Position numbers and translations under genes: made by a program | Origin: Methanomassiliicoccales archaeon | Lineage (GTDB): Archaea; Thermoplasmatota; Thermoplasmata; Methanomassiliicoccales; UBA472 | Reading direction: 5' to 3' | Assembly (NCBI GenBank): GCA_035527755.1 | Contig: DATKZX010000007.1 | Location: 1-64,000, forward strand | Length of the DNA stretch: 64,000 nucleotides | In this document: positions 6,271 to 12,544 of the stretch, piece by piece | Layout: each line of letters begins with the position of its first letter | Position numbering within the stretch: position 1 is the stretch's first letter | The notes under the pieces: model-generated | Seen by the model: only the letters and a program-made list of their open reading frames with translations | Database searches by the model: none | Told to the model about the DNA's origin: nothing

Positions 6271-6894
6271 CTATCTCCTGCGTTTCATCAACAGAACGCT
6301 CAATAGGAGCATGGCCACGGCGAACAGCGTCAGTAACGCTAGGTCCGGCCAGATATGTTCCAGGCCCCAGCCCCTTACCATGACCGAACGCGCGCCATCC
6401 ACGGCGTAGGTTAGCGGCAGGAAGTAGGAGATGGGCCTCAGCACCTCCGGCACCGCTTGAACGGGCCAGAAGACCCCGGACAGCAGCATCGAAGGGAACA
6501 GTATCAGCGGGATGAACTGTATGGCCTGGAACTCCGTTCTGGCGTTGGCGGACAGGAGGAAACCGAGCCCCTGCATCCCCACCCCCAGCAGGAATATGGT
6601 CAGCAACACCAGCAGGAGCGATCTCTCCACCTGCACGTTGAAGAGCAGAAGGGCGGTCGCCATCACCATCATGGACTGGATCAGCCCGATGAAGCCGAAC
6701 GCGACGACGTACCCCATCACCACCTCCCCCTCCGTCACTGGCGTGGAAAGTAGCCTGGCGAGGGTTCCGGTGGTGCGCTCATGAATGAAGGAGATAATGG
6801 ACAGCATGAAGGTCACGCCGCTCAAAGAAATGGTCTGTGTCAGCGTCCATCGTCGGACCTCATGCGATGTTGACGATATCTTTATAATAGGCAC
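6271..6894 (-). pseudogene. 5'-truncated ABC-2 permease (ABC drug-export type)
   Basis: 207 aa covering only the C-terminal half of a DrrB/YadH-like permease: coupling segment IHERTTGTLARLLSTPV, the helix NARTEFQAIQFIPLILFP, the LSGVFWP loop and a last helix. Full-length relatives have about 350-370 aa; the first membrane helix and external domain are missing, and there is no ATPase gene beside it. The only available start is a GTG at 6894 that lies inside the promoter of the divergent luxE-like gene, so it may not be expressed. The truncation point coincides with the edge of the luxE-like cassette. Confidence 0.7.
6881..6889 (+). promoter_or_regulatory. TATA box of the first LuxE-like gene
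   Basis: TTTATAATA centred near 6885, about 26 bases before the ATG at 6911, so the transcript is predicted to be leaderless. Confidence 0.65.
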
Positions 6895-6910: not shown

Positions 6911-8278
6911 ATGGAATATACCGATTACATCCGCAATTTTGAGTCATCAACAGCTCGTTATATTCCAAGACCTGAAGGCTGGACCCCTTCGGAACATGCG
7001 GTCTACGGGCCATCCGACTACTTCCGCCTGGAAAAGAAGGAAGCGGACGATATGCGTTTCAAGGCGGTAAAATACCAGTTCACCAGGCACTACGCCTCCA
7101 ACAAGACCTATCGCAACTATTGCCTGGAGACGAAGTTCACCCCAGAATCTCTGCGTACCGTCGAGGACCTGGACCAGTTGCCCGTAGTCTCCAGTGATTT
7201 CTTTAAAACGTATCCATCCGGCAGGGACTTCGCTCTCTGGCTGGCCAATATGTACACCGGGGAGCTTCCCCGGGTGCATATCAAGCCAAAGAACCCCACC
7301 CACGACGAGGTCATCGATTCCTTCAACTCCGCAGGCATGGCCGTCGCTTACAGCAGTGGCACCAGCGGCCGGCACACGTTCATACCGCGGGACATGAAGA
7401 GCTTCTTCTCCAACGAGTACTCCCTGGCCAAGGGGGCGGTCTCCATGTTCTTCCCCCGATGGGACCCTAAGATGCGTGGATTCCTTCTGATGCCCAATCC
7501 GTTCAAGACCAATCTCTTCGCTGGAAGGCTGGGGACGATCTTCTACGACATCATGAAGGACGTGGAGGTGGCCATCGACCGCGAGGTGAACACCGAGACG
7601 GTGCGCATGACCATGGCCCAGGGTGATGGCATCAAGGACCGTTTGACGAAATATGTCTTAAGCAAGAGCCATCAGCGATCGGTGGAAAAGATCATGGCAT
7701 GGATCGACCGACGCTCCAAGGAAAAGGAGAGGATCGCCCTGGTCGGTGTCCCGTTCCTGCTGCATTCGGTGCTTAACGAGCTGAAGGAACGAGGAAAGAC
7801 CTACAAGCTGGGTGATCGGGGCGCGGTTCTCACCGGGGGCGGATGGAAGATGCACGAGGACCAGCGCATTCCCGAAAGCGAGTTCCGCAAGGATGTCGAG
7901 GAGATGTTGGGCATCCCCCCCGAGGCCTGTCTGGACCTCTACGGCATGGTAGAGGGCAACGGCTGGATGATGCAATGCCCTGAAGGTCACCATCTCCACA
8001 TTCCTACATCGTACCTGCACCCGATGGTGCTGGACGGTTCGAACCAGAACGTGGGTTACGGGAAGCACGGGCGCTTCGCCTTTTTAGACGGTTCCATGGG
8101 AAGCTACCCCGGGTTCATCGTGACCAACGACAAGGTTCGAATGCTGGAACATTGCCCCCACTGTGACCGTCCCGGGCCGGTGCTGGAGCCGGGGATCACC
8201 CGCATGGCCGGACAGGAGATGAGAGGCTGCGGTGAGGAAGTGCGCAGGATGATGGCCGCCGACGTGGGAGGGGTGTAA
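6911..8278 (+). CDS. LuxE-like acyl-protein synthetase (copy 1)
   Basis: 455 aa. Adenylate-forming fold of the LuxE/PaaK group: phosphate-binding SSGTSGRHTF (148-157), LTGGGWK (307-313), and the acyl-adenylate motif DLYGMVEGN (342-350). A CPHCDRPGP segment (415-423) could bind a metal, and a near-terminal Cys440 in RGCGEE lies where LuxE family proteins carry the acyl-accepting cysteine (family knowledge; role here inferred). The enzyme would activate a carboxylic acid with ATP and hold it as a thioester. The next gene starts one base after its stop. A second copy of the pair follows. Substrate unknown. Confidence 0.82.
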   Translation: MEYTDYIRNFESSTARYIPRPEGWTPSEHAVYGPSDYFRLEKKEADDMRFKAVKYQFTRHYASNKTYRNYCLETKFTPESLRTVEDLDQLPVVSSDFFKTYPSGRDFALWLANMYTGELPRVHIKPKNPTHDEVIDSFNSAGMAVAYSSGTSGRHTFIPRDMKSFFSNEYSLAKGAVSMFFPRWDPKMRGFLLMPNPFKTNLFAGRLGTIFYDIMKDVEVAIDREVNTETVRMTMAQGDGIKDRLTKYVLSKSHQRSVEKIMAWIDRRSKEKERIALVGVPFLLHSVLNELKERGKTYKLGDRGAVLTGGGWKMHEDQRIPESEFRKDVEEMLGIPPEACLDLYGMVEGNGWMMQCPEGHHLHIPTSYLHPMVLDGSNQNVGYGKHGRFAFLDGSMGSYPGFIVTNDKVRMLEHCPHCDRPGPVLEPGITRMAGQEMRGCGEEVRRMMAADVGGV

Positions 8279-8279
8279 A

Positions 8280-9251
8280 ATGGTATCGTTCAGAGAGATG
8301 AAGGAACGGGAATACATTCCGCACACCCCGTTCGTGCGCTTGATGGTCAAGGGCGTGCTCTCGGTGCTCAAGGTCAGCGCCTTCCATCTGCCCGAGGTGA
8401 TGCGCATGCGCGTCGTTCATGAGGATCAGGAGCGATACGTACGTCCCACCAGGATGTACCAGCTTCCTAGGTATGAGGAGGGGATGAAGAGCGTTCGTTC
8501 CGATGAGAAGTACCTGCGTCCCACCTTGCAATGCGACCCCAACGACCCGCGGATCGTGGCCATGGCCCATGAGATCGGTGCCTTCCAGGTTCCGGACCGC
8601 ATCTTCGTGGAAAGGGCGCACCATCTGGTTAAAGAGCTCATGCGCGTCGAATACGTCCCGCTCTGCGGGGTCGGGGAGACCCTGGAGCGGGGGACCGGTA
8701 CCTGTTTCCATCTGGCCGGCGTGCTGATCGCGCTATGCCGCTGCGCTGGAATAAGGGCGAGGTACAAGATCTTCGCCATGAGCATGATCGCCTCCTGGTA
8801 CCATAGGATGCTGGGGGCGGACTCCTTCATGCAGAGGTGGTACGATTCGCTCGGCTATTTCCTGCTGGAAGCGGAGGTGGAGATCATGCTGGACGGGGAA
8901 TGGGTGATGGCGGTGGTCGGTCCTGACGCCGGCTGGCAGGCCTCCGTGGGCAACGGCATCAGCAAGTTGGGAGAGACCTCCCTGGGCGACTGGTTCGAGG
9001 CGGTCCCGGGTACGGTGATGGTCACCGAATCCCTGCCTTACGGACTGGCCATCATGGGGCAGCTCATGATATCCATAGCACCGGGTTCAGTGGAGAGGGT
9101 CAATCTCAACGTGGTCAAGCTGAGCACCGATGGCGACAGGATCATCGCCGACATCGGAGGCCCGGAGGCCTACGACGCCTTGACGCGGGCCAAAACGGTC
9201 AAGATGCCCAAGATGGAGTTGGAGAACAAGGGAGAGATCACCTTCGATTGA
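8280..9251 (+). CDS. Transglutaminase-fold protein (copy 1), partner of the LuxE-like enzyme
   Basis: 323 aa. The core RGTGTCFHLAGVLIALCRCAG around Cys142 matches the nucleophile helix of transglutaminase-like proteins. At the place of the catalytic His the sequence has Tyr193 (LGYFLLEAEVEI), and the acid position falls near Asp216 (VVGPDAGW). It is thus either a variant catalyst or a binding protein. An N-terminal 80-residue region and a C-terminal region are unlike other families I recognise. It follows the luxE-like gene with a single base between them, so the two are probably co-translated and work together on the activated acyl group; that is an inference. Confidence 0.75.
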   Translation: MVSFREMKEREYIPHTPFVRLMVKGVLSVLKVSAFHLPEVMRMRVVHEDQERYVRPTRMYQLPRYEEGMKSVRSDEKYLRPTLQCDPNDPRIVAMAHEIGAFQVPDRIFVERAHHLVKELMRVEYVPLCGVGETLERGTGTCFHLAGVLIALCRCAGIRARYKIFAMSMIASWYHRMLGADSFMQRWYDSLGYFLLEAEVEIMLDGEWVMAVVGPDAGWQASVGNGISKLGETSLGDWFEAVPGTVMVTESLPYGLAIMGQLMISIAPGSVERVNLNVVKLSTDGDRIIADIGGPEAYDALTRAKTVKMPKMELENKGEITFD

Positions 9252-9352
9252 CAGCATCTTATGGATCGTTCAGCGCCTTTCATGCCAAGGGAACGAATTA
9301 TTCCTGAGCAAACGAACTGAGTGCTTCGCAGGAATTCGAACCAACCTGTAAA

Positions 9353-9363
9353 CTTTAATTATT
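9353..9363 (+). promoter_or_regulatory. TATA box of the second LuxE-like gene
   Basis: CTTTAATTATT, centred about 26 bases before the ATG at 9384. This supports 9384 as start and a leaderless transcript, so the second cassette has its own promoter. Confidence 0.6.
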
Positions 9364-9383
9364 GGTTCGGTATGGGAACTGCG

Positions 9384-10748
9384 ATGGGATATGCCGAATA
9401 CATAAGCGAGTTCGAGACACTGGTATCGAGGTATGTCCCGGAACGCTCTTCCTGGGGACCACCGGAACAGGCATTATACGGTCCTACCGACCCTTATCGG
9501 GTGCCGACGGAAGAGGCCAACGACCTATGTTTCAAAGCGGTCAAGTTCCAGTTCGATCGTCATTACCATCATAACCGGATGTACCACGACTTCTGCCAGG
9601 AGGCCGGGGTCGGGCCGGAGGACATAAAAGCTTACGAGGACCTGAGCAAGATCCCGCTCATCCCCAACGAGTTCTTCAAGGACTGTCCGACCGGCAAGGA
9701 TTTCGCCCTTTGGCTGGGCAATCTGTACACCGGTGAACTGCCGCAGATCCGGATCAAGGGAACGAACCCCAGTGCCGATCAGGTGGTCAGCGCCTTCAAC
9801 GACGCGGGCTTGTTCGTGCTCTTCAGCAGCGGGACCGGTGGACGTCATACCTTCACGCCCCGGGACAAGCGCAGCTTCGATATGAACGAGTACGCCATGG
9901 CCAAGGGCGTGGCCGCCATGTTCTGCCCCACCTGGAACCCCCGGATGAACGGTTATCTGCTGCTCCCGAACCCTTTCAAGACCAATCTGTTCGCCGGAAA
10001 GCTGGCCACCATATTCTATGACATTATGAACGAGGTGGAATCGGCGGTCGACCGCAAGATCGACACCGAGCTCATCCGGCTCACCATGGGCGATGGGAAG
10101 GGGGTGAAGGGGAGGATGATCAAGTACATCTCCAAGAAGCGGAGCCGTAAGACCATCGACGACATCATCTCCTGGATAGAACAGAACGATAAGGAAGGCA
10201 AGGGGATGGCCTTCGTCGGCGCGCCTTTCCTCCTATTTTCCACCATCAAGAAGCTAAAGGAGCAGGGTCGTTCCTTTGACCTTGGGGACCGCGGTGCGGT
10301 GCTCACCGGGGGCGGCTGGAAGTTGCACGAGGACCAGCGGATGCCCGAAAGCGAATTCCGTAAGGATGTGGAATCGGTGCTGGGCATCAAGCCGAAGAAC
10401 GTCATTGATCTCTATGGCATGGTGGAGGGGAACGTCTGGTTGACGCAATGCCCCGAGGGGCATTACCTGCACATCCCCAATTGCTACGTATACCCCATGG
10501 TGCTTGACGATTCCTATCGACCATTGGGATACGGCAAGCTGGGACGGTTCGCCTTCTTGGACGGTACCATGTACAGCTATCCTGGGTTCATAATCACCAA
10601 CGATAGGGTGCGCTTACTGGAGAGATGCCCGGTCTGCGGGCGACCGGGGCCGGTGCTGGAACCGGGAGTGACCAGGGTACCGGGGAAAGAATCGCGCGGT
10701 TGCGCGGAAGAGGTACGGAAGATCATCTCCGTGGACATGAAGAGGTGA
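9384..10748 (+). CDS. LuxE-like acyl-protein synthetase (copy 2)
   Basis: 454 aa and clearly a paralogue of the first copy over its whole length: FSSGTGGRHTF for the phosphate loop, LTGGGWK, DLYGMVEGN, CPVCGRPGP and near-terminal Cys in RGCAEE are all kept. The reading frame extends upstream to 9321, but the ATG at 9384 lines up with the start of copy 1 and sits at the expected distance from the TATA box. Strong conservation of every motif in both copies argues that both are active, perhaps on different acids. Confidence 0.82.
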   Translation: MGYAEYISEFETLVSRYVPERSSWGPPEQALYGPTDPYRVPTEEANDLCFKAVKFQFDRHYHHNRMYHDFCQEAGVGPEDIKAYEDLSKIPLIPNEFFKDCPTGKDFALWLGNLYTGELPQIRIKGTNPSADQVVSAFNDAGLFVLFSSGTGGRHTFTPRDKRSFDMNEYAMAKGVAAMFCPTWNPRMNGYLLLPNPFKTNLFAGKLATIFYDIMNEVESAVDRKIDTELIRLTMGDGKGVKGRMIKYISKKRSRKTIDDIISWIEQNDKEGKGMAFVGAPFLLFSTIKKLKEQGRSFDLGDRGAVLTGGGWKLHEDQRMPESEFRKDVESVLGIKPKNVIDLYGMVEGNVWLTQCPEGHYLHIPNCYVYPMVLDDSYRPLGYGKLGRFAFLDGTMYSYPGFIITNDRVRLLERCPVCGRPGPVLEPGVTRVPGKESRGCAEEVRKIISVDMKR

Positions 10749-10752
10749 CGGA

Positions 10753-11730
10753 GTGACGACGCTAGCTGAGATCAAGTCCAACGGGTACATGCCGCAGCGA
10801 GCCTACCTCCGGCTCATGGTAAATGGTGGCCTCTCCCTTTCCAAGGTCATCCTGCTGAACATGCGGGAGCTGCGAAGGTTGAGGGTGGTTCCGGCGGACG
10901 GTGAGAGATACAACCGTCCGGCCAGACAGTATGAAGTTCCCGTTTTCAAGGAAGGAATGAGGTCCTGCAGTTCCAGGGAGAAATACCTGCGGCCCACACT
11001 GTTCTGCGATCCGCACGACCCTGTCGTGGTGGCCATCGCTCACGAGCTCGGGGCGTTCCAGGTCTCGGACCGCCAGTTCACCGAGAATGCCTATCATTTC
11101 GTCAAAGAGAGGATGCTGCTGGAGGAGCGCCAGATCAACGATGTGCGGGAGACCTTAATGCGCGGCAGCGGGACCTGCTTCCACCTCATAACCGCCTTCA
11201 TCGCATTATGCCGATGCGCTGGAATAAAGGCACGGTACAAGATCTTCGCCATGAACATGATCCGGAGCTGGTACGATGTGGTGATCCAGCCGGACCCGTT
11301 CATAAAGAAATGGTACGATTCATTGGGGTACTTCGTCCTGGAGGGGGAAGGCGAGGTTCTCGTGGACGGAGAATGGCTGGTGGCCAATGTCGGTCCCGAG
11401 GCAGAGTGGCAGGCGGCCACCGGTACGACCATCACCAAGCTCGGTGAGGATTCCATCGGGAACTGGTTCAACGCGGTCCCGGGAACGATGATGAGAATGG
11501 AATCGCTTCCTTACGGCCTCAAGGCCTCATTGGACCTTCTACACACCATCGCCCCCGGTTCCATGGAGCGCGTGAACATCAGCATGGCGGCTCAAAAGGA
11601 AAGAGGTCGGAAGATCCTCATCGAGGCCGGAGGGCTGGAAGCCTACGATCGTTTGGCCAGGGCGCGGCAGGGTCCGAGGATGCCCAAGTTAAAGTTGGAA
11701 TCCAGAGATCAGATAACCTTCGACGGATGA
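10753..11730 (+). CDS. Transglutaminase-fold protein (copy 2)
   Basis: 325 aa, GTG start four bases after the previous stop, with GAGGTGACGGA before it as a possible SD. Cys142 (GSGTCFHL), Tyr193 in place of the usual His and Glu216 in place of Asp match copy 1 position for position, as do the N-terminal RPTLxCDPxDP and C-terminal ITFD blocks. The same departures from the classical Cys-His-Asp triad in both copies show that they are a family trait and not a recent decay. Confidence 0.75.
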   Translation: MTTLAEIKSNGYMPQRAYLRLMVNGGLSLSKVILLNMRELRRLRVVPADGERYNRPARQYEVPVFKEGMRSCSSREKYLRPTLFCDPHDPVVVAIAHELGAFQVSDRQFTENAYHFVKERMLLEERQINDVRETLMRGSGTCFHLITAFIALCRCAGIKARYKIFAMNMIRSWYDVVIQPDPFIKKWYDSLGYFVLEGEGEVLVDGEWLVANVGPEAEWQAATGTTITKLGEDSIGNWFNAVPGTMMRMESLPYGLKASLDLLHTIAPGSMERVNISMAAQKERGRKILIEAGGLEAYDRLARARQGPRMPKLKLESRDQITFDG

Positions 11731-11818: not shown

Positions 11819-11965
11819 ATGGTAGATGTAACCTGCAAAACCTGTGGAAAGACCTTCTCTGGGTCGACCAGACAAGAGGCCGCGAAGCAGTTGAAGAAGC
11901 ATTGCAACCACGATATAATCGGCGAGGCCACCCTTCAACGCACCCGTTACGGCTCGAACGCTTGA
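11819..11965 (+). CDS. 48-aa C2H2-like zinc-finger microprotein
   Basis: Small frame starting ATG-GTA-GAT. It has Cys6-x2-Cys9 and, after 18 residues, His28-Cys29-Asn30-His31, a plausible zinc site; the chain between them is helical and basic. A TATA-like AATATAAAA near 11777 lies about 40 bases upstream, giving a short leader. The gene follows the luxE-like cassette but has its own promoter. A nucleic-acid-binding role is likely but not shown. Confidence 0.6.
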   Translation: MVDVTCKTCGKTFSGSTRQEAAKQLKKHCNHDIIGEATLQRTRYGSNA

Positions 11966-12088: not shown

Positions 12089-12544
12089 ATGCACATGGGG
12101 CTCTTGGGTTCGTTTAAGGATGATCATGGCGGAAGGGACGAGGGGTCGGGCGTCATCGAAGAGCTGGACCTCCACATTTGCCAGGTGCAAAGTGTCATCG
12201 TGCAGCTCCAGGTGGCCATGGGGGGCTTTCCATCTCCGATAAGGGAGGCGGCCCAAAGGGCTTACGTCAACAATGTGGGGGAGAATATGGACGACAGCCT
12301 GCGCCGATTGACCAAGCTGCAGAGAAAATTGGGGGCTGGAAAGCTCAGTGGTGTTTCCAAGCAGGAGATCACCGCACTTAAGGACGAGATGATGAAACTG
12401 GACGATCACCTGCGGACCAGCTATCGGGGGGTGAAACACCTTCCAGAAGGGCGCCAGGACCGACGCCTGGTGAAAGAAACGGCCAAGGAACAATCAGAAA
12501 AGGTCAAGGCACTGGTAAAAGCCTTGGACCGGTTTACCCGGTGA
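12089..12544 (+). CDS. Helical protein of unknown function
   Basis: 151 aa, almost all helix, with charged heptad-like stretches (VNNVGENMDDSLRRLTKLQRK and the Lys-rich C-terminus). No family recognised. The codon pattern is coding-like, and it lies head-to-tail before the GPN GTPase with a 41-base gap. The ATG follows a weak AATTTTCAT box at leaderless distance. An opposite-strand frame of 145 aa covers the same bases and is judged to be a shadow because of its His/Pro-rich composition. Confidence 0.55.
   Translation: MHMGLLGSFKDDHGGRDEGSGVIEELDLHICQVQSVIVQLQVAMGGFPSPIREAAQRAYVNNVGENMDDSLRRLTKLQRKLGAGKLSGVSKQEITALKDEMMKLDDHLRTSYRGVKHLPEGRQDRRLVKETAKEQSEKVKALVKALDRFTR

Follow-up and report, generated by a model that had tools for sequence, protein, structure and literature searches.

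What a LuxE-like acyl-activating enzyme might do beside a transglutaminase-fold (TG) protein, in two neighboring copies, is the question raised by positions 6911–11730 of the 64,000-nt stretch of archaeal DNA analyzed here (the window; G000:C7:1-64000). The genome that holds the window belongs to the Methanomassiliicoccales; it is 1.68 Mb in size and carries mcrA, which identifies it as that of a methanogen. Four genes lie head-to-tail in the order LuxE1, TG1, LuxE2, and TG2, and the features of the locus are as follows:

6271..6894, minus strand: ABC-2 permease, shortened (207 aa versus ~385–400 aa in G005 and G007), divergent from LuxE1
6879..6890, plus strand: TATA-like box ATCTTTATAATA, a sequence reading; position kept in relatives, ~21–32 nt before the LuxE1 ATG
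6911..8278, plus strand: LuxE1, LuxE/PaaK-like acyl-protein synthetase of 455 aa; P-loop YSSGTSGRHTF, YGMVE, and acyl-accepting Cys440 (RGCG)
8280..9251, plus strand: TG1, transglutaminase-fold partner of 323 aa; Cys142, Glu197 (canonical His position), and Val212 (canonical Asp position)
9351..9363, plus strand: TATA-like box AACTTTAATTATT, a sequence reading; position as in the box of relatives, ~21–33 nt before the LuxE2 ATG
9384..10748, plus strand: LuxE2, second LuxE-like enzyme of 454 aa; FSSGTGGRHTF and Cys440
10753..11730, plus strand: TG2, transglutaminase-fold partner of 325 aa; Cys142, Glu197, and Asn212 (canonical Asp position)

The open reading frames sit where a first-pass annotation of this DNA had placed two tandem pairs of the same gene order, and the spacing that it gave within the pairs was measured at the same values, 1 nt between LuxE1 and TG1 and 4 nt between LuxE2 and TG2, with 132 nt separating the pairs. 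LuxE1 and LuxE2 share 58% identity over 452 aa (600 bits), and TG1 and TG2 share 55–56% over 324 aa (E 1e-134), scores at which the repeat of the pairs cannot be due to chance. As had also been claimed, each pair possesses its own TATA-like box ahead of LuxE: all 11 LuxE genes compared have CTTTATAA, exactly or nearly, at the same position (~22–33 nt upstream of the start), and the background of TTTAWW in the 64-kb window is 0.59 per kb and strand. This conserved location, ~30 nt before the LuxE start, suggests that the leaders of the LuxE transcripts are very short or absent. The LuxE2 open frame begins with a GTG at 9321; the ATG at 9384 was preferred as the start because of the TATA spacing and the fit with relatives. 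Two small genes follow on the plus strand: one just 3′ of TG2 (11819–11965) encodes a 48-aa, small-zinc-finger-like protein with CxxC and HC residues, and one at 12089–12544 encodes a 151-aa protein without a Pfam match that is kept downstream of the pair across the genus.

All four genes showed dN/dS values of ~0.1 to 0.2 against their nearest relatives (LuxE1 ~0.1), as expected of copies that are both held by purifying selection. The term "duplicated cassette" used in the first-pass annotation was correct in that the two pairs are homologous; the recent duplication event that it implied was not recovered in the trees. In both the LuxE and the TG tree, Pair 1 grouped with G005, G007, G009, G003, and G002, all from the genus of the window, and Pair 2 grouped with G001 of this genus together with members of other genera (G010, G011, and G021). 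Judged from these phylogenies, the two pairs are old paralogues and not the products of a recent local duplication. The pair was found in 8 of the 10 genomes of the genus, with two TG copies in G000 only, and the simplest reading of the trees would be an old duplication in the genus followed by differential loss, with both copies kept by G000; alternatively, one of the pairs could have been gained laterally.

The family assignments made initially, LuxE (PF04443) and transglutaminase fold (PF01841), were both upheld by scores above the Pfam cut-offs. LuxE1 and LuxE2 scored 102 and 110.6 bits with PF04443 (cut-off 24.9), and the LuxE of PDB 7xc6 was matched by LuxE1 at 1.6e-16, with Cys440 aligned to its GC motif. 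The catalytic motifs SSGT(S/G)G, YGMVE, and the C-terminal RGC containing Cys440 were seen in each copy, in agreement with the earlier statement that both had retained them. Among 74 LuxE homologues, Cys440, the acyl-accepting thioester Cys, was present in all 74, and the ATP-binding motifs SGTxG and YxMxE were invariant or nearly so. The C-terminal Cys is the described acyl site of LuxE (PMC8301110, citing Soly and Meighen). Accordingly conserved, LuxE1 and LuxE2 probably activate a carboxylic acid and hold it as a thioester. With the NCBIfam equivalog LCFA_lig_LuxE, the true long-chain fatty acid–protein ligase, the two proteins scored 84.5 and 88.1 bits versus the 550 required, a result that places them by sequence as relatives of this equivalog and not as members. 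Coenzyme F390 synthetase and the PaaK CoA ligases gave a weak N-terminal match to LuxE1 and LuxE2 (18–25 bits), far below their cut-offs of 459–700 bits, and both window proteins have the LuxE-type Cys440.

The partner proteins matched Transglut_core (PF01841) over ~30–40 aa around Cys142, with 27.4 bits for TG1 and 30.3 bits for TG2 (cut-off 23), and all 40 members of the TG family tested matched this model (E <= 0.01). Cys142 was present in 87 of 87 homologues. On alignment to 3ISR, in which the Cys was matched, the canonical His corresponded to residue 197 and the canonical Asp to residue 212. These positions were occupied by H/D in 52 of the 87 TGs, E/H in 21, E/N in 7, E/V in 6, and H/E in 1; the sites of the window are C-E-V in TG1 and C-E-N in TG2, so that the Cys-His-Asp triad is absent from both, an alteration that the first-pass annotation had overlooked. 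The segments around both positions aligned gap-free (e.g., HGEGEVYIDGKWIVADVGP vs EGEGEAFIDGKWVPAHVGP), so the exchange of the His and acid positions is real. The Glu-type TGs nest within the H/D tree as a clade of 29 (SH-aLRT 98) and a separate group of five. These sequences trace an ancestral Cys-His-Asp site that became Cys-Glu-His in one clade and then Cys-Glu-Asn (TG2) and Cys-Glu-Val (TG1). Because the window TGs have neither the canonical His nor the canonical Asp, ordinary transglutaminase chemistry at Cys142 cannot be assumed. A Glu-type site is compatible with catalysis, given that transglutaminases with an acid, Asp or Glu, where the His normally lies have been described: in a Streptomyces transglutaminase the His and Asp are swapped and the Asp is essential, and Bacillus Tgl has Glu in place of His (PMC10318531, a review of papain-like enzymes). 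By this analogy, the window TG site may be catalytically active. The Streptomyces and Bacillus enzymes share with the window TGs an acid for the canonical His (a swapped or a Cys-Glu site), but they belong to other families and have no LuxE partner, and the window TGs, unlike them, are also without His at the third position. Structure models of TG1 and LuxE1 built from 12-row alignments (mean pLDDT 52 and 54) were too poor for inspection of the site, and a Foldseek search of the PDB with this low-pLDDT TG1 model returned nothing useful.

The TG family was found in 12 of 101 genomes of relatives, and the LuxE subfamily occurred in the same 12, nearly always adjacent; in G018 the fragments of the pair lie on two contigs. 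On a short contig of G018 (L053/L065, G018:C35), LuxE residues 1–43 and TG residues 82–173 share one open frame, which represents a broken or misassembled pair. Many more matches were obtained from a phylum sample of 390 Thermoplasmatota genomes, in families f23, f34, f46, f50, f53, and f55 and with as many as four TGs in a single genome; since scoring was limited to a few top candidates from each genome, absences in this sample are not firm. A LuxE gene lay within 500 nt on the same strand for 97 of 126 TG matches and was upstream in 96 of these 97. It was directly upstream of the TG in 65 of 87 loci, 5 others were cut at sequence ends, and 17 lay apart, a number that includes some second TGs belonging to the same cluster; a few LuxEs stood without a TG. 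The two genes were therefore not found apart as often as together, which was the outcome named beforehand as evidence against their linkage, and the LuxE-TG pair recurs as a unit in Thermoplasmatota, often in multiple copies. Two arrangements depart from the simple pair. At L138 (G288:C1, 6699–14135), an array of three LuxE genes, one TG, and an Nramp-like gene includes some LuxE copies without a TG, and at L139 (G186:C26, 7173–12044), the genes after a LuxE encode first a Glu-type TG, then a His-type one, and last an Nramp-like protein, which brings both active-site states into one operon. Searches with the TG gave weak generic transglutaminase matches among plasmids and no matches among viral contigs, and a scan of genome contigs with patterns drawn from two sequences yielded a single relative.

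The LuxE proteins fell into classes A and C, which are linked to TGs, and class B, which occurs with LuxC, SCP2, and an FAD-linked oxidase. Class A LuxE was always accompanied by class A TG (50 pairs) and class C by class C (13 pairs), with no mixed pairs. The LuxE and TG distance matrices were correlated (r 0.86), and when partners were shuffled within the 13 genomes with multiple pairs, none of 1000 shuffles reached the observed r of 0.91 (shuffled mean 0.13); for class A alone, 5 of 1000 reached the observed value. These sequence comparisons show LuxE and TG to be inherited as a unit, although co-inheritance alone does not prove physical contact, and we are highly confident that the TG is the functional partner of LuxE.

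The function of this partner can be approached through the sister class B, whose LuxE proteins scored 395–422 bits with the LuxE profile of the window family. Transfer of the acyl group from the LuxE Cys to a LuxC Cys has been described (PMC8301110), and we infer by analogy that the TG takes the place of LuxC as acyl acceptor in this branch. We proposed that each pair constitutes a two-component ATP-dependent acyl-transfer system running from LuxE through TG to a nucleophile, a model whose chances we put at about even. In the step for which the inference is strong, LuxE would make an acyl-adenylate from a carboxylic acid and then become acylated at Cys440 through a thioester bond. The group would then pass, as from LuxE to LuxC, to Cys142 of the TG, and the TG would resolve the thioester by handing the group to a nucleophile; an amine is the likeliest, in which case a protein or small molecule would end up carrying an amide. 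That the TG receives the acyl group and hands it on appears evenly balanced for the family and less probable for the two copies in the window. The relay is supported chiefly by the sister classes, in which the TG replaces LuxC, an established acceptor from LuxE, and the idea of transfer to a partner Cys gains force from the published mechanism of the LuxC with which the sister LuxE class is paired. Ancestral partners would have used Cys-His-Asp chemistry, and the window TGs, if catalytic, would be Cys-Glu enzymes, with Bacillus Tgl as the precedent and the Streptomyces transglutaminase as the Asp version. The separate copies probably handle separate acids.

A counterpoint is that the window TGs could be noncatalytic, as His197 and Asp212 are missing; the 17 TGs that lack an adjacent LuxE and the few LuxEs that lack a TG also count against the model. 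As a pseudoenzyme, the window-lineage TG would keep the fold and act for LuxE as a subunit for docking or regulation or as an acyl-binding carrier, and LuxE itself would pass the thioester to the acceptor. Residues 197 and 212 are E/V or E/N in every member of family f1 examined, TG1 has changed faster than LuxE1 (67% versus 83% identity to G007), and the order LuxE, TG(E), TG(H), transporter at L139 is the one expected of an enzyme with a pseudoenzyme. However, Cys142 is invariant in the 34 Glu-type members too, and Glu197 is fixed there with no sign of drift; active transglutaminases with Asp or Glu at the equivalent of position 197 exist; and the Methanomassiliicoccales relatives contain no catalytic-triad TG of this family that could act as the partner. 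We consider loss of catalysis rather unlikely on this balance. We regard as improbable a role of the TG before LuxE, in the manner of LuxD, in which it would release the acid as a thioesterase, amidase, or peptidase and LuxE would then activate this acid for another, unlinked acceptor. In favor of such a role, lux operons contain the thioesterase LuxD as a third partner, amidases and peptidases occur among the transglutaminase folds, and one genus has aminopeptidase M29 genes in the vicinity; yet no LuxC stands beside TG-type LuxE, which would leave LuxE without a visible acceptor, the genome's LuxC homologue lies on a separate contig next to a different protein of 446 aa and does not track the pair in its occurrence, and the Glu-type site is closer to described transferases than to hydrolases. 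Service of LuxE to this LuxC in trans was rejected as well: LuxC presence in family f1 does not track the pair, several genomes hold one without the other, and the LuxC on C16 has its own operon. In that operon (L211, G000:C16, 1–4768, minus strand), the LuxC homologue is joined by a UbiA-like prenyltransferase, an NAD-dependent epimerase, and the 446-aa protein, which has no Pfam match and resembles PaaK-type activators by eye. Two other candidates were discarded: a defense system, since none of the four proteins matched a PADLOC model, and coenzyme B or another universal methanogen cofactor as the product, since most Methanomassiliicoccales are without the pair and other classes of the phylum have it.

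The acyl relay from LuxE to TG is compatible with a further proposal, which adds a physiological role and which we think unlikely as it stands, that the pair is a step in organic-acid uptake and conjugation in which a transporter imports the acid, LuxE activates it, and the TG conjugates it. An Nramp-like transporter accompanies the pair in 17 loci from 10 genera; its first helix reads GQGQ or GAGx where Nramp has DPGN, the metal-binding motif of that family. An MFS transporter, best matched by aromatic-acid/H+ symporters at scores far below the model cut-off, lies beside Glu-type TGs in one genus, and the genus of the window has a TetR-ABC exporter in divergent orientation to LuxE. These links suggest small-molecule acids as substrates. 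Against the proposal, several pairs have no adjoining transporter, the window's genome yielded no relative of the Nramp-like protein, and the ABC permease of the window is shortened. In G005 and G007, TetR, ATPase, and permease genes precede LuxE, and the TetR and ATPase genes are missing there in the window, where the exporter looks, from its sequence, like a remnant; we treat this permease as a neighbor and claim no part for it in the mechanism.

The LuxE and transglutaminase folds are each known, and LuxE-type activation with a TG partner is what seems to be undescribed: as the first-pass annotation had surmised, no system of this composition was found in the openly accessible literature searched. 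The closest counterpart is the LuxE-LuxC fatty acid reductase of luminous bacteria (PDB 7xc6), which shares the LuxE domain, the ATP motifs, and the C-terminal acyl-accepting Cys and has an adjacent partner with an essential Cys able to take the thioester, as the TG could. It differs in that this partner is the LuxC reductase, whereas the archaeal pair has a TG fold and no LuxD; the gene cluster of the window contains no LuxC, and with a transglutaminase fold in place of the reductase, no aldehyde is expected as the product. Amide formation from a thioester has a parallel in antibiotic assembly, Fortin, in a 2007 study cited in PMC5216899, having reportedly described a transglutaminase homologue as the amide-forming catalyst of andrimid assembly. 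Such AdmF-type homologues take an acyl thioester and form an amide; the likeness is one of described mechanism, and the acyl donor is an assembly-line carrier protein there and LuxE in the window pair. A bolder reading, to which we give somewhat less than even chances, is that of an undescribed ATP-driven two-component acyltransferase family, expanded in Thermoplasmatota, in which the TG replaces LuxC and the His/Asp site decayed through Glu/His to Cys-Glu in Methanomassiliicoccales with activity retained. By combining a transglutaminase fold with LuxE, an enzyme familiar chiefly from bioluminescence, the pairs point to an unrecognized, multicopy chemistry for activating and transferring acyl groups in a phylum whose uncultured archaea and methanogens are abundant. 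They also provide a natural active-site series, C-H-D, C-E-H, C-E-N, and C-E-V, inside one paired family, along whose tree the His/acid swap of transglutaminases can be traced.

Clusters of LuxE, SCP2, and LuxC with an FAD-linked oxidase were observed in other Thermoplasmatota (L145, L146, L207, L208, and L210). Those at L145, L146, L208, and L210 belong to the same phylum and encode the sister LuxE class, but they have SCP2 lipid carriers, LuxC, and the oxidase where the window pair has a TG. Such clusters possibly represent a lipid-carrier-assisted archaeal fatty acid reductase.
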